Source: an uncultured Selenomonadales bacterium
GTDB taxonomy: Bacteria; Bacillota; Negativicutes; Selenomonadales; Selenomonadaceae
DNA: 41,847 nucleotides
Reading direction: 5' to 3'
Assembly: GCA_946408105.1 (NCBI GenBank)
Contig: CAMJQS010000004.1
Location: 1 to 41,847, forward strand
Below the pieces are notes generated by a model. It had not been told where the DNA came from. It made no database searches and saw only the letters and a list, made by a program, of their open reading frames with translations. How positions within the stretch are numbered: position 1 is the first letter of the stretch; every line of letters begins with the position of its first letter. Below, in pieces: positions 24,816 through 30,959 of the stretch. A program made the position numbers and the translations under genes.

Positions 24816-26909
24816 TTAAATTTTGACGACGCCGATAATTTGAATCTCAACCGACTGATCAATTTCGGCGTGAGAAACAATCGTGAGGCCTTGAACGGAA
24901 CGCGCGACGAGTTTGCGGAAGTAAAGACGAACGGCGGGGCTCGTCAACACGACGGCGGAGTAGCCTTGGTTGGCGAGCTTTTCCGTTTCCTTGTTCAGCG
25001 AAGCAATCATGCGGCGCATCGAGTCCGGGTCGAGGCTGACGTAAGAGCCGTGGTCTGTGCGCTGAATGCTGCCGACAATCCGATTTTCCAACGCAGGGTC
25101 GAGCGTGATACACGGCAAAACATTTCCTTGAACGACTTGCTGCGTGATTTGTCTGCCCATGGCGTGGCGCACGTATTCCGTCAAAATTTCGGGGTCTTTC
25201 GTGGCGCGCCCGTAATCGGCGAGCACTTCCATAATCGTGGCCATATCGCGAATCGAAACGCGTTCGTTGAGCAAGTTGGCCAAAACTTTTTGAATTTCGC
25301 CGATGCCCAAAAGTTCGGGGACAACTTCGTCGACGAGCCCGCGATTGGATTTTGCGAGGTTGTCGACGAGGTTTTGAGTTTCTTGGCGGCCGAGAATTTC
25401 CGAAGCGTGTTGCTTGATAATTTCTGTTAAGTGCGTGGCGAGAACCGACACCGCGTCGACGACGGTATAACCGCTGAGCTCTGCCTGTTCGCGTTGCGCT
25501 TCGGGAATCCACAGGGCGGGCAGTCCGAAGGCCGGCTCCACCGTTTCAATGCCGGGAATTTCTTCAAAGACCGTGCCGGAGTTCATCGCCAAGAAGTGGT
25601 CGAGCATGAGTTCGCCGCGTGCAATTTCCATGCCCTTTAACTTGATGATGTAAGCGTTCGGTTTGATTTGAATGTTATCGCGGATACGAATCGTCGGGAC
25701 GACCAAGCCGAGTTCGAGGGCGCATTGTCGACGAATCATAACGATACGGTCGAGCAAGTCGCCGCCCTGCCCCGTGTCGACGAGCGGAATCAACGAGTAA
25801 CCGATTTCCAATTCCATGGGGTCGACCTGCAGCAGCGAGATAATATTTTCGGGGCGCGTGGCCTCCGTTTTTTCTTTAGCCTGCTGCTGTTCCTCTTTGA
25901 CTTCTTCGGGCACGATATTTTTCTTGTGCAAGCTGTAGCCGATGAACGCGCAGATGAGAGCCAGCGACGCGAACGGTATGCCGGGCAAGCCGGGGACGAT
26001 TGACAGCATGAACAGGACGCCCGTGTTGATGAAGAAAATTCTTTCGTTGTTGAAAAGTTGCTTAACGAGGTCGGCACCGAGGTTTCCTTCAGAGGCGGCA
26101 CGCGTGACGATGATACCTGTCGCCGTGGAAATTAACAGCGCGGGAATTTGGCTTACGAGACCTTCGCCGACGGTTAGCAGTGTGTAAGTTTGCAGAGCGG
26201 TCGCGGCGTCCATGTCCTTTTGCACCATGCCGATGATGAAGCCGCCGCCGATATTAATCAACATGATGATAATCGCGGCGATTGCGTCGCCTTTGACGAA
26301 CTTTGAGGCACCGTCCATCGCGCCGAAGAAATCCGCCTCGCGCTGAATTTTCGTGCGGCGTGCTTTTGCCTCCTCGTCGGTTATCGCGCCCTGGTTCAAG
26401 TCCGCGTCGATTGCCATTTGCTTACCGGGCATTGCGTCCAACGTGAAACGCGCAGAAACTTCAGCGACGCGCTCGGAGCCTTTGGTTATGACGATAAAAT
26501 TTATGATAACCAAGATGATAAACATGATGAAGCCGACGACGGGATTGCCGCCGACGACGAAATTTCCGAACGCCGTAATGACTTCGCCCGCGTAACCGTT
26601 AATCAAAATCAACCGCGTCGAGGAAATGTTCAAAGCCAATCGGAAAAGCGTCGTCACCAGGAGCAACGACGGGAAGACGGACAAGTCCAGAGCCTCCTCG
26701 TTGTAAATCGCGCTCATGATGACGACCAGGGCGATTGTGATGTTCAAACAGATGAGCAAGTCCAAAAGCGCAGTCGGCAACGGGATAATCATCATGATAA
26801 CAATCATGACGAGCGTCACGGCGATTATAACGTCGCTGTACTTTTGGATAATCGAGCCGAGTGTTCGCGGTTCGCTTTCTAAAATATCTGCGGGTGCGGG
26901 CATAATCAT
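24816..26909 (-). CDS. flhA: Flagellar biosynthesis protein FlhA
   Basis: Multi-TM N-terminus, RFTLDAMPGKQMAIDADLNQG motif, 697 aa. Confidence 0.97.
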   Translation of the reverse strand: MIMPAPADILESEPRTLGSIIQKYSDVIIAVTLVMIVIMMIIPLPTALLDLLICLNITIALVVIMSAIYNEEALDLSVFPSLLLVTTLFRLALNISSTRLILINGYAGEVITAFGNFVVGGNPVVGFIMFIILVIINFIVITKGSERVAEVSARFTLDAMPGKQMAIDADLNQGAITDEEAKARRTKIQREADFFGAMDGASKFVKGDAIAAIIIMLINIGGGFIIGMVQKDMDAATALQTYTLLTVGEGLVSQIPALLISTATGIIVTRAASEGNLGADLVKQLFNNERIFFINTGVLFMLSIVPGLPGIPFASLALICAFIGYSLHKKNIVPEEVKEEQQQAKEKTEATRPENIISLLQVDPMELEIGYSLIPLVDTGQGGDLLDRIVMIRRQCALELGLVVPTIRIRDNIQIKPNAYIIKLKGMEIARGELMLDHFLAMNSGTVFEEIPGIETVEPAFGLPALWIPEAQREQAELSGYTVVDAVSVLATHLTEIIKQHASEILGRQETQNLVDNLAKSNRGLVDEVVPELLGIGEIQKVLANLLNERVSIRDMATIMEVLADYGRATKDPEILTEYVRHAMGRQITQQVVQGNVLPCITLDPALENRIVGSIQRTDHGSYVSLDPDSMRRMIASLNKETEKLANQGYSAVVLTSPAVRLYFRKLVARSVQGLTIVSHAEIDQSVEIQIIGVVKI

Positions 26910-27308: not shown

Positions 27309-28448
27309 TTAAGCAACTTTGCGGTGCTTGATTCGATAGACGTAAGCGAGAATTTCTGCGACGGCTTGATAAAGTTCGGAAGGAACGGAGCCGCCCACTT
27401 CGACGCTCTCGTAAAGTGCGCGCGCCACGGGTTTGTTCTCGACGATCATCACGTGATGTTCGCGGGCAATCTCTTTGATTCTTTCGGCGACGAGGTCTTG
27501 ACCTTTTGCAACGACGGTCGGCGCAATCATTCCTTTTTTGTAGCTGAGCGCAACCGCCAAATGCGTCGGGTTCGTGATGATGACGTCGGCTTTTGGCACT
27601 TCCTGCATCATGCGCTGCATTGCCATTTGCCGCTGCTTTTGTTTAATCTTGCCTTTGATTTGCGGGTCGCCTTCCATTTGCTTGAACTCGTCTTTGACTT
27701 CCTGCTTGCTCATCATCAAGTCTTGCGTCGTCTGCCACTTTTGATAAGCGTAGTCCGCCGCCGCCATTATCATTATCACGCCGATAACTTGAAACGCCAT
27801 TGTGAAGATAACGTCCGCGGCCGTCGCCAAAGATTGTGGCAGGTCGAAGAAAATAAATTGCGGCAAGAGAGGAATTTGGTCTTTCAAATAAAGATAAAGA
27901 AAATATCCGATGACGACGATTTTAAAAAGCGATTTGAAAAGCTCGACGATTGACCGCTTGGAAAAAATTCTTCCGAAGCCGTTAATCGGGTTGAGGTTTT
28001 CAAGTTTCGGCTCAAGTTTTTCCGTCGACAGCATTAAGCCGACTTGGAAAAGATTTATCGCAAGCCCGACAATCATTATCGAAAACATGACGGGCATAAC
28101 CGTTTTTGCCAAAAGAATCATTATCCCGATAAAAAGTTCGGAGATTGCCTCGGTCGACGTTGTGTTCGACAGGTGCGAATAAAGATAAACCGTGTACTCG
28201 GCGATGTTGCCGTAAATGAATTCCCACAAGACGCGCAGAATCGTAAAGCCGATTAACAGGACGAACGCCGTATTGAGTTCTTGGCTGCGCGCGACTTGAC
28301 CTTTCTTGCGGGCGTCTTCGCGCTTCTTGGCGGTCGGCTCTTCGGATTTTTCGCCGTCGAAGCGTTGCAGGTCGAAGACAAAATTTTTTAAATCGTCGTC
28401 AAGGGGCAAGGGCTTTGAGGGCAATGGAAATGTTCGCGTACATTTCAT
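27309..28448 (-). CDS. flhB: Flagellar biosynthesis protein FlhB
   Basis: EKSEEPTAKKREDARKKGQV N-terminus and NPTHLAVAL autocleavage site. Confidence 0.96.
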   Translation of the reverse strand: MKCTRTFPLPSKPLPLDDDLKNFVFDLQRFDGEKSEEPTAKKREDARKKGQVARSQELNTAFVLLIGFTILRVLWEFIYGNIAEYTVYLYSHLSNTTSTEAISELFIGIMILLAKTVMPVMFSIMIVGLAINLFQVGLMLSTEKLEPKLENLNPINGFGRIFSKRSIVELFKSLFKIVVIGYFLYLYLKDQIPLLPQFIFFDLPQSLATAADVIFTMAFQVIGVIMIMAAADYAYQKWQTTQDLMMSKQEVKDEFKQMEGDPQIKGKIKQKQRQMAMQRMMQEVPKADVIITNPTHLAVALSYKKGMIAPTVVAKGQDLVAERIKEIAREHHVMIVENKPVARALYESVEVGGSVPSELYQAVAEILAYVYRIKHRKVA

Positions 28449-29208
28449 TAAAAATCACGTCCAAAAAGAGAATGTAAAACGGCAACACCATGGAAATCAT
28501 GCCCGTGCCGATTGTCAGCTGAAGCGGAATGCCGACGACAAAAATATTCATCTGCGGCATCGTTCGCGCAAGGATACCCATTCCCACGTTCGTCAGCAAA
28601 ATTGCAAAAGTCACGGGCATTGCGATTTTCATTCCGTTCATAAAAATTCCCGCCGTCAAATCGTTTATCAGTTGCGGCAGCGAAGTATTCCAGACCATTG
28701 CGTTGAGCGGAATGATTCTGAAACTTTCGGCCAGCGCGGAAATAATCACGTGGTGGCCGTTCGTCACGACAAAATAAATTACCGTCAAGTTGTAAAGAAA
28801 AGAACCGATAAGGCCGGCTTGCTGCTGCGTCGTCGGATCCATCATGCTGACCATTGCGAAGCCGACCTGCATGTCCATGATTTTGCCGGCCATGTTCACT
28901 GCGGAAAGAGTTATGTAGCCGACGAGCCCGATTAGCCAGCCGACGAAAAGTTCCTTGACGACGGTGAACGCGAACAACAAAAGCGTCGCGGGAGCTTCCA
29001 CGACGTACATTTTCACGACGACGGGAAAAAGAATTACAGCCAGTACGACCGCCGCGCATGCTCGTATCTTTATCGAAATGTTCAAGCTGCCCAGGAACGG
29101 CGAAATAAAAAAAATGCCGCTCGTCCGTGTCAGCACAAGCAAAAAGCACGCCACTTGCCCTTGAAGAATGTCGAAAAAATCTACCTCTGTCAAAGCTTCG
29201 ACCTCCAA
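28399..29208 (-). CDS. fliR: Flagellar biosynthesis protein FliR
   Basis: RTSGIFFISPFLGS, multi-TM, position between fliQ and flhB. Confidence 0.94.
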   Translation of the reverse strand: MEVEALTEVDFFDILQGQVACFLLVLTRTSGIFFISPFLGSLNISIKIRACAAVVLAVILFPVVVKMYVVEAPATLLLFAFTVVKELFVGWLIGLVGYITLSAVNMAGKIMDMQVGFAMVSMMDPTTQQQAGLIGSFLYNLTVIYFVVTNGHHVIISALAESFRIIPLNAMVWNTSLPQLINDLTAGIFMNGMKIAMPVTFAILLTNVGMGILARTMPQMNIFVVGIPLQLTIGTGMISMVLPFYILFLDVIFNEMYANISIALKALAP

Positions 29209-29217
29209 GCAAGGAGC

Positions 29218-29487
29218 TCAGCCGATACGCGACGGCAAGCCGATAAATATTCCCGAAAAAAATTCAACCATGATTCTAAGCATCCACGGCCCGAAAATTA
29301 AAATCGCCACGAAGACCGCGATAATCTTCGGGATAAATGCGAGCGTCTGTTCTTGAATTGAAGTTGTGGCTTGAAAGACGCTGACCATCAAGCCGACCGT
29401 CAAGCCCAAGCCGAGCATCGGCGCGGAAACAATCAGCACGACCATCAACGCCTCTTGCCCCAGCTGAATTACCAAATCTCCCGACAT
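29218..29487 (-). CDS. fliQ: Flagellar biosynthesis protein FliQ
   Basis: 89 aa, two TM segments, SVFQATTSIQEQTLAFIPKI motif. Confidence 0.96.
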   Translation of the reverse strand: MSGDLVIQLGQEALMVVLIVSAPMLGLGLTVGLMVSVFQATTSIQEQTLAFIPKIIAVFVAILIFGPWMLRIMVEFFSGIFIGLPSRIG

Positions 29488-29507
29488 GACGCACCTCTAA
29501 AAAATTT

Positions 29508-30204
29508 CTAAGCAAATTTAACAAACTGCATGTGCATTTTTGTAATCTGATTCTGCGCGACGAATTGATTTACCTTTGCGAAGTTATAACGGAGATATTC
29601 TTTCTCCGCGGCCACGTAGAATCTGTTTATCGCGAAATCAAAAGCAAAAATATAATCGTTTTCCAAGAGCAAGTCTTCCCATTTATCGTGGCAAGGAATG
29701 TTCGTCCCGGGAAGCGTCGCCTCCATTACAAAAATCCACGGGCGAAATTTATTCCAATCCTTTACGCCTTCAAGGACTTGTCGCTCGTAACCTTCGACGT
29801 CGATTTTGCAGAAGTGAACATCTTGATTCGGGGGGGGGGTATTTTTCGCAAACTTCCGAGAGCGTCAAAATATTTTTCTGACTCTTGCGGGTGTTTTGGT
29901 TTGCGAATTCCGGCAAAAAAGTTGAACCTTCGCCGGCCTCAAAAATTTCAAGCTTGCCGCGTTCGCTGCCCAGACCGACACAAAGATTAATGTCACGCGG
30001 GCGCATTTCAGAAAGGAGCGCGCACTTGTCCGTCAGCGGCTCGATATTAATTCCGTGCCAGCCTCTGTCGTAGAAAAATTTCGTCACGCTGAGTAAAGTG
30101 GGATCGTTCGCGCCGACGTCGATATAAAAGCCTTTGTCAACATCTTTCAGCGCGCAATACAAAATCATATCTTCAAAAAATTGCGCGTAAGATTCAAACC
30201 TCAA
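29508..30204 (-). pseudogene. FkbM-family methyltransferase, frameshifted at a C10 (G10 on +) tract; possibly phase-OFF rather than a true pseudogene
   Basis: ORF 29770..30204 (EDMILYCALKDVDKGFYIDVGANDPTLLSVTKFFYDRGWHGINIEP) runs into C10 and a foreign frame. With C9 it continues as YPPPNQDVHFCKIDVEGYERQVLEGVKDWNKFRPWIFVMEATLPGTN into ORF 29508..29726. Confidence 0.88.
29830..29839 (+). repeat. Homopolymeric G10 tract (C10 on coding strand)
   Basis: gattcGGGGGGGGGGtattttt read directly. Confidence 0.95.
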
Positions 30205-30218
30205 TTAAAACACCTCCG

Positions 30219-30959
30219 CTATCGGAAACTTACAATTATCGATTGAATCAGCAAATGCCAGCCGTCAATCATCACGAACAGCAAAATTTTGAACGGCAAA
30301 GAAATCATGACGGGCGGCAACATCATCATGCCCATTGACATCAGCGTCGTGGCGACAATCATATCTATGACGATGAACGGCACGTAGAGCATGAAGCCGA
30401 TTTGAAATGCAGTTTTCAGTTCGCTGATTATGAACGCGGGAATCAGCGTGAACGTCGAGACGTCTTCTTGAGAGTTCGGGCGTTCGGCCTCCGACAAGTT
30501 CACGAACAGTGCCAAGTCCGATTCGCGCGTTTGACGGAACATAAATTCGCGCATGGGTTCGAGGACGTTTGTTATCGCTTCTTCCTGCGAAATTTGTCCC
30601 GCCAGGTAAGGTTGCAAGCCGTTGTCGTTCGCCTGCGACCAGTAAGGAGCCATTATGTAAAACGTCAGGAACATTGCCAACGAGACGATAACTTGGTTCG
30701 GCGGGACGTTTTGAGTGGCCAGCGCGTTCCGCAGGAAGCCGATTATCACAACGATTCGCACGAAGGAAGTCGTCATCATCAAAATTCCCGGCGCGATTGT
30801 CGCCAAAGTTAAAATCGCAATGACTTGCAAAGTCGAGGCGACCTGTTCGGGATTTTCCGCCGTGCCGACTTCCACGTTGACGGACGGAATGAGCGGTGCC
30901 GCCTCCGCGCAGTTCACAAAAAATACGCCGACCGCGCAGATTAAAAAAAATCTTGTCAC
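30219..30959 (-). CDS. fliP: Flagellar biosynthesis protein FliP
   Basis: TSFVRIVVIIGFLRNALATQNVPPNQVIVSLAMFLTFYIM. Confidence 0.97.
   Translation of the reverse strand: MTRFFLICAVGVFFVNCAEAAPLIPSVNVEVGTAENPEQVASTLQVIAILTLATIAPGILMMTTSFVRIVVIIGFLRNALATQNVPPNQVIVSLAMFLTFYIMAPYWSQANDNGLQPYLAGQISQEEAITNVLEPMREFMFRQTRESDLALFVNLSEAERPNSQEDVSTFTLIPAFIISELKTAFQIGFMLYVPFIVIDMIVATTLMSMGMMMLPPVMISLPFKILLFVMIDGWHLLIQSIIVSFR

Follow-up and report, generated by a model that had tools for sequence, protein, structure and literature searches.

The closest described systems are the phasomes of Campylobacter, where R-M systems and the genes for flagellar glycan, LOS, and capsule carry intragenic G/C tracts of 7–13 bases (PMC6321876, PMC8355987). 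FkbM genes are, in addition, annotated alongside GT41 glycosyltransferases in the flagellin glycosylation islands of Enterobacteriaceae (PMC4875605). The Quinella genome paper describes complete flagellar gene sets, the words homopolymer and frameshift are absent from it, and electron microscopy of one Quinella preparation showed cells of two kinds, one with a granular or electron-dense surface and the other with a smooth one (PMC9585023). No paper in the open-licence literature searched links phase variation to Quinella or to Selenomonadaceae, or treats it together with homopolymeric tracts in Selenomonas; the tract-switch mechanism is known, and its occurrence and genus-wide scale in Quinella appear to be unreported in that literature.

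The locus described here, a putative fkbM gene, resembles Campylobacter maf1/maf4, cj1295, and cj0170 (a SAM-dependent methyltransferase) in its intragenic G/C tract, its probable role in surface-glycan modification, and the presence of several such loci per genome. It differs from them by a host from another phylum (outer-membrane Firmicutes/Negativicutes), by its place in the fliP-fliQ export operon, and by its FkbM family; moreover, the host possesses MutS1, and neither Maf-type nor NeuB genes were found in its genome, which is 61% complete. With the flagellin islands of Enterobacteriaceae and Geobacillus it shares the gain and loss of FkbM genes at flagellar loci, frequently in the company of GT41 (PMC4875605), but those islands adjoin flagellin genes (fliDC/AZ) and no tract has been reported in them, whereas the Quinella-type gene would be a single tract-switched gene between fliP and fliQ. 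As in the phasevarions of Campylobacter, Helicobacter, and Neisseria, the host has a methylase gene with a tract: a G11 run (L041, G000:C26, 3218-3228) lies near the 3' end of an ORF fusing a C5 cytosine methylase to an HpaII-type endonuclease, which makes it a candidate phase-variable restriction-modification gene. Unlike the phasevarions, this fusion is HpaII-like type II, and its locus is separate from fkbM.

The window, that is, the whole 41.8-kb stretch of DNA analyzed (41,847 nucleotides), is contig C4 of a MAG of 1.85 Mb in 232 contigs. This MAG shares its GTDB genus with Quinella sp. 1Q5 and 1Q7 (Selenomonadaceae, rumen), and the host organism, uncultured and from the rumen, belongs with Quinella. 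By Pfam, the operon order is fliL, fliM, fliY/N-like, a cheY-like response regulator, fliO, fliP, [fkbM], fliQ, fliR, flhB, and flhA. The features around the tract are as follows.

30219..30959, minus strand: fliP, the upstream neighbor (PF00813)
30213..30217, minus strand: GGAGG Shine-Dalgarno of fkbM, read in the sequence
29770..30204, minus strand: assembled fkbM, 144 aa from its TTG start to a premature stop, matching PF05050 positions 1-84
29830..29839, minus strand: C10 tract (coding strand) exactly where the frame breaks, proposed as the switch
29508..29829, minus strand: second part of fkbM in the offset frame, from the KIDVEGYE motif onwards to the natural stop, matching PF05050 positions 111-173
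29494-29498, minus strand: AGAGG Shine-Dalgarno of fliQ, read in the sequence
29218..29487, minus strand: fliQ, the downstream neighbor (PF01313)
28399..29208, minus strand: fliR (PF01311)
27309..28448, minus strand: flhB (PF01312)
24816..26909, minus strand: flhA (PF00771)

The gene is thus placed inside the flagellar export operon: its TTG start at 30204 lies 14 nt from the end of fliP, with GGAGG 8 nt upstream, and its natural stop at 29508 is followed by the fliQ ATG 20 nt further on. An earlier note, made from the DNA alone, had placed a methyltransferase-like gene between fliP and fliQ, about 14 nt from fliP, broken exactly at the C10 run with a stop at 29770; sequence and Pfam neighbors confirm its position, and reading of the ORFs confirms the break. 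The note's arithmetic, a protein of 231 aa from two frames offset by one base, is also right. In the assembled 144-aa product, the residues past the tract are out of frame. The tract itself is beyond chance, is intragenic, and sets the reading frame of fkbM: G/C runs in the window have lengths of 1 to 5, followed by one single run of 10, while a Markov model predicts 0.0003-0.008 runs of at least 10.

Both halves of fkbM separately match PF05050 (Methyltransf_21), each over the cut-off and on different parts of the profile. The read-through protein, built with an X at the frame break, scores 81.4 bits over the complete profile (1-173/173, cut-off 22.7), which bears out the FkbM identity suggested in the earlier note, and it also matches TIGR01444 (NCBIfam) with 61.6 bits (cut-off 37.7). 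The motifs DVGANDP, IEPL, and KIDVEGYE are present and are conserved among the homologues, and a sequence search returned no PDB relative of the protein. The product is a probable sugar-modifying, S-adenosylmethionine-dependent methyltransferase of the FkbM family. Truncation removes the second half of the domain, KIDVEGYE motif included, and should leave the product inactive.

We surveyed homologues in 60 genomes of the genus, all draft MAGs, one per species. The fliP-fliQ slot carries fkbM in the host genome and in seven others (G039, G030, G046, G016, G002, G051, and G010); in G044, fkbM stands behind fliP and extends up to the contig end. Eight homologues, host included, possess a G/C tract of 7-11 bases at one of three positions in the gene, the lengths coming from short-read draft assemblies and possibly being off by one base.

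Host: C10 near codon 125, out of frame
G046: C11 near codon 125, out of frame
G016: C8 near codon 125, out of frame
G030: C7 near codon 125, in frame
G010: G7 near codon 25, out of frame
G002: G8 near codon 25, out of frame
G051: G9 near codon 25, out of frame
G036: G11 near codon 105, out of frame; homologue at another locus, not fliP-fliQ
G039: no tract at the poly-C site (CCACCCCC), intact

Both phases and differing tract lengths are thus observed among the homologues, in a comparison that is between species only. Seven of the eight tracted copies are out of frame, not significantly more than the random expectation of about 5.3. The three locations indicate that tracts arose separately within one gene family.

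The slot itself is variable. The gap between fliP and fliQ is 10-25 bp in most of the genus genomes examined (16 bp in the closest) and 733-820 bp in those bearing fkbM. In G022, the slot is occupied by a different gene of 315 aa (L118, 548-1495, minus strand) with no Pfam/NCBIfam match, glycosyltransferase-like by reading only. Occupancy is patchy on the fliP-fliQ tree even among very close genomes, G030 being occupied and G055 and G032 empty, on a tree where several nodes are weakly supported and where recombination may affect fliP and fliQ too. Gene gain and loss appear to be frequent at this slot, which would make it a site of gene exchange for surface-modification genes inside a core operon.

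Similar tracts are found across the genome. The host MAG contains 18 C or G runs of at least 9 bases, where Markov models fitted on the window predict 0.1-1.8. The median density of such runs in the genus is 6.3 per Mb versus 1.4 in 123 other genomes of the family, an approximately 4.5-fold difference (Mann-Whitney p = 1e-21, a value that overstates independence, the genomes being related). All 60 genus genomes have at least one such run; elsewhere in the class, genomes mostly have 0-4. One other genus of the family (g14, three genomes, G120-G122) is equally tract-rich, with about 9 per Mb, so that the trait could be an older one or have two origins. All 121 family genomes searched have a MutS1 match, which exceeds the cut-off in 115, and the host copy is intact; loss of mismatch repair was accordingly rejected as the source of tract richness.

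The host genes broken or bordered by tracts appear, from their domains, to serve mostly surface glycans (glycosyltransferase, methyltransferase, capsule, and LPS functions), protein names without a Pfam/NCBIfam match being a reading of sequence alone. They include GT2, GT8, GT92, WavE, Caps_synth, two SAM methyltransferases besides fkbM, a radical SAM protein, UbiA, a hexapeptide acyltransferase-like protein, and the HpaII-type fusion; three tracts are intergenic or without an assigned gene. Of the coding tracts sampled and flanked on either side by long open frames, 8/28 are in frame, or 8/29 with the window (some 28%), close to the third that free drift over three frames would give; at one sampled locus (L049), the tract may sit upstream of the true start. 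In G003, listed as 100% complete, there are 88 G/C tracts of at least 9 bases, and neighboring GT8, GT2, and TonB-receptor genes stand in rows, each with its own tract. Eight scanned of the 30 tracts sampled from this genome (L121-L150) affect GT8, GT2, GT11, two FkbM, a radical SAM protein, a PglD-like protein, and a TonB receptor. A C9 tract also breaks the frame of the third of three tandem flagellin genes in the host (L159, G000:C1, 509-6168). Since the N-terminal start region of this gene is missing as well, the copy is probably silent or damaged, and it was not retained as firm support for a phase-variable flagellin.

We consider it very probable that fkbM is a contingency locus, that is, an FkbM SAM-dependent methyltransferase gene whose poly-C tract turns production of the enzyme on or off as bases are gained or lost. 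Slipped-strand mispairing at replication would change the length of the tract and shift the frame between full-length and truncated FkbM; the full-length enzyme would O-methylate a sugar on a surface glycan, flagellin being the most likely carrier on a judgment that is evenly poised. About 18 tracts, mostly in glycan genes, would together let the population present many surface variants, which could serve, for example, against phages, protozoa, or antibodies. The phase-variable reading offered in the earlier note is well supported by tracts at three positions, both phases, purifying selection, and similar tracts in surface genes genome-wide. Against it, MutS1 is intact, so that slippage would have to escape repair, and the genome, at its 61% completeness, offers no Maf-type or NeuB gene supporting a known flagellin glycan.

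The switch could instead act mainly on the operon, untranslated RNA in the OFF state lowering fliQ-fliR-flhB-flhA and the tract tuning motility. The genes form a same-strand operon, and the OFF stop (29770) precedes the fliQ start by 282 nt, which would go untranslated and make an effect on fliQ-flhA possible. A tract acting on a downstream gene has, moreover, been proposed for cj0045/cj0044 of Campylobacter (PMC8355987). As fliQ possesses its own Shine-Dalgarno, however, any OFF effect would be transcriptional polarity only. The purifying selection described below shows that the methyltransferase protein itself matters, and the other tract genes lie mostly outside flagellar operons. We therefore regard motility tuning as unlikely to be the main role, while an operon effect could coexist with a contingency locus.

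A plain pseudogene, in which one indel in a chance homopolymer fixed a broken state and the gene is decaying, would agree with the out-of-frame state of the host copy and of 6/7 other tracted homologues, and with the lack of fkbM in most genus genomes, which marks it as dispensable. Yet no second lesion, be it a further stop or a frameshift, was found in any copy of the homologues, and the dN/dS ratios stay far below 1 upstream and downstream of the break alike, at 0.08-0.23 (Nei-Gojobori; dS is saturated in several pairs other than G002/G010). The second part of fkbM against its relatives gives 0.08-0.19, and even the OFF-OFF pair G002/G010 gives 0.13 upstream and 0.23 downstream of the break. 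The gene thus appears to be under purifying selection on either side of the break, and the lack of a second lesion together with the low dN/dS fits switching and not long-standing inactivation. Uniform C10 with further decay in relatives, which the earlier note had named as the mark of a pseudogene, was looked for across species and not seen. Since tracts also have separate origins at three positions and G030 is in frame with C7, simple decay is quite unlikely.

An error in the homopolymer, the true gene being intact, has to be weighed for a short-read MAG, homopolymers being error-prone. But a tract of at least 9 bases is itself unexpected, and independent assemblies from different studies place tracts at differing points of this one gene. 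Nor would consensus errors give the excess seen across the genus or an in-frame share of about one third, and we find such an error very improbable. CCC codon runs favor frameshifting by tRNA-Pro, so that the OFF state may leak, but programmed ribosomal frameshifting or transcriptional slippage that yields the full-length protein from an out-of-frame gene is most improbable of all, and its conserved programmed form was rejected: across the tract, four homologues are offset one way and three the other, and poly-G tracts (Gly codons) occur as well as poly-C ones, which leaves no conserved recoding signal; G030 and G039 are simply in frame.

Among possible surface-glycan targets, those on flagellin are the most likely because of the place of fkbM in the flagellar export operon. 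The host genome has ten flagellin N-domain matches and, at 61% completeness, no match to Maf-type (PF01973) or NeuB proteins. About 1 kb from a flagellin gene lies a GT41 (O-GlcNAc-transferase-like) gene (L160, G000:C21, 1810-3633, minus strand), a candidate flagellin glycosyltransferase. From the position of fkbM and the GT41 gene beside flagellin, we give a flagellar glycan about an even chance of being the FkbM target.

Taken together, the tract set suggests a bacterium whose cell surface is continually reshuffled, as in Campylobacter. More tentatively, and with somewhat less than an even chance, Quinella-type rumen Negativicutes would have evolved a large G/C-tract phasome independently of Campylobacter and with MutS1 intact, their populations being mosaics of surface variants. 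Flagellar, capsule, LPS, outer-membrane receptor, and restriction genes would fall under such a phasome, which, if true, would account for the two surface types seen by microscopy (PMC9585023). Quinella is an abundant, uncultured rumen genus and one linked to low-methane sheep, and its tract loci are traceable, with no need to grow the organism, in rumen metagenome reads that already exist. Most cataloguing of tract-driven phasomes has concerned Campylobacter and Neisseria; a similar set in this genus would extend the principle to a commensal of a dense microbial community.
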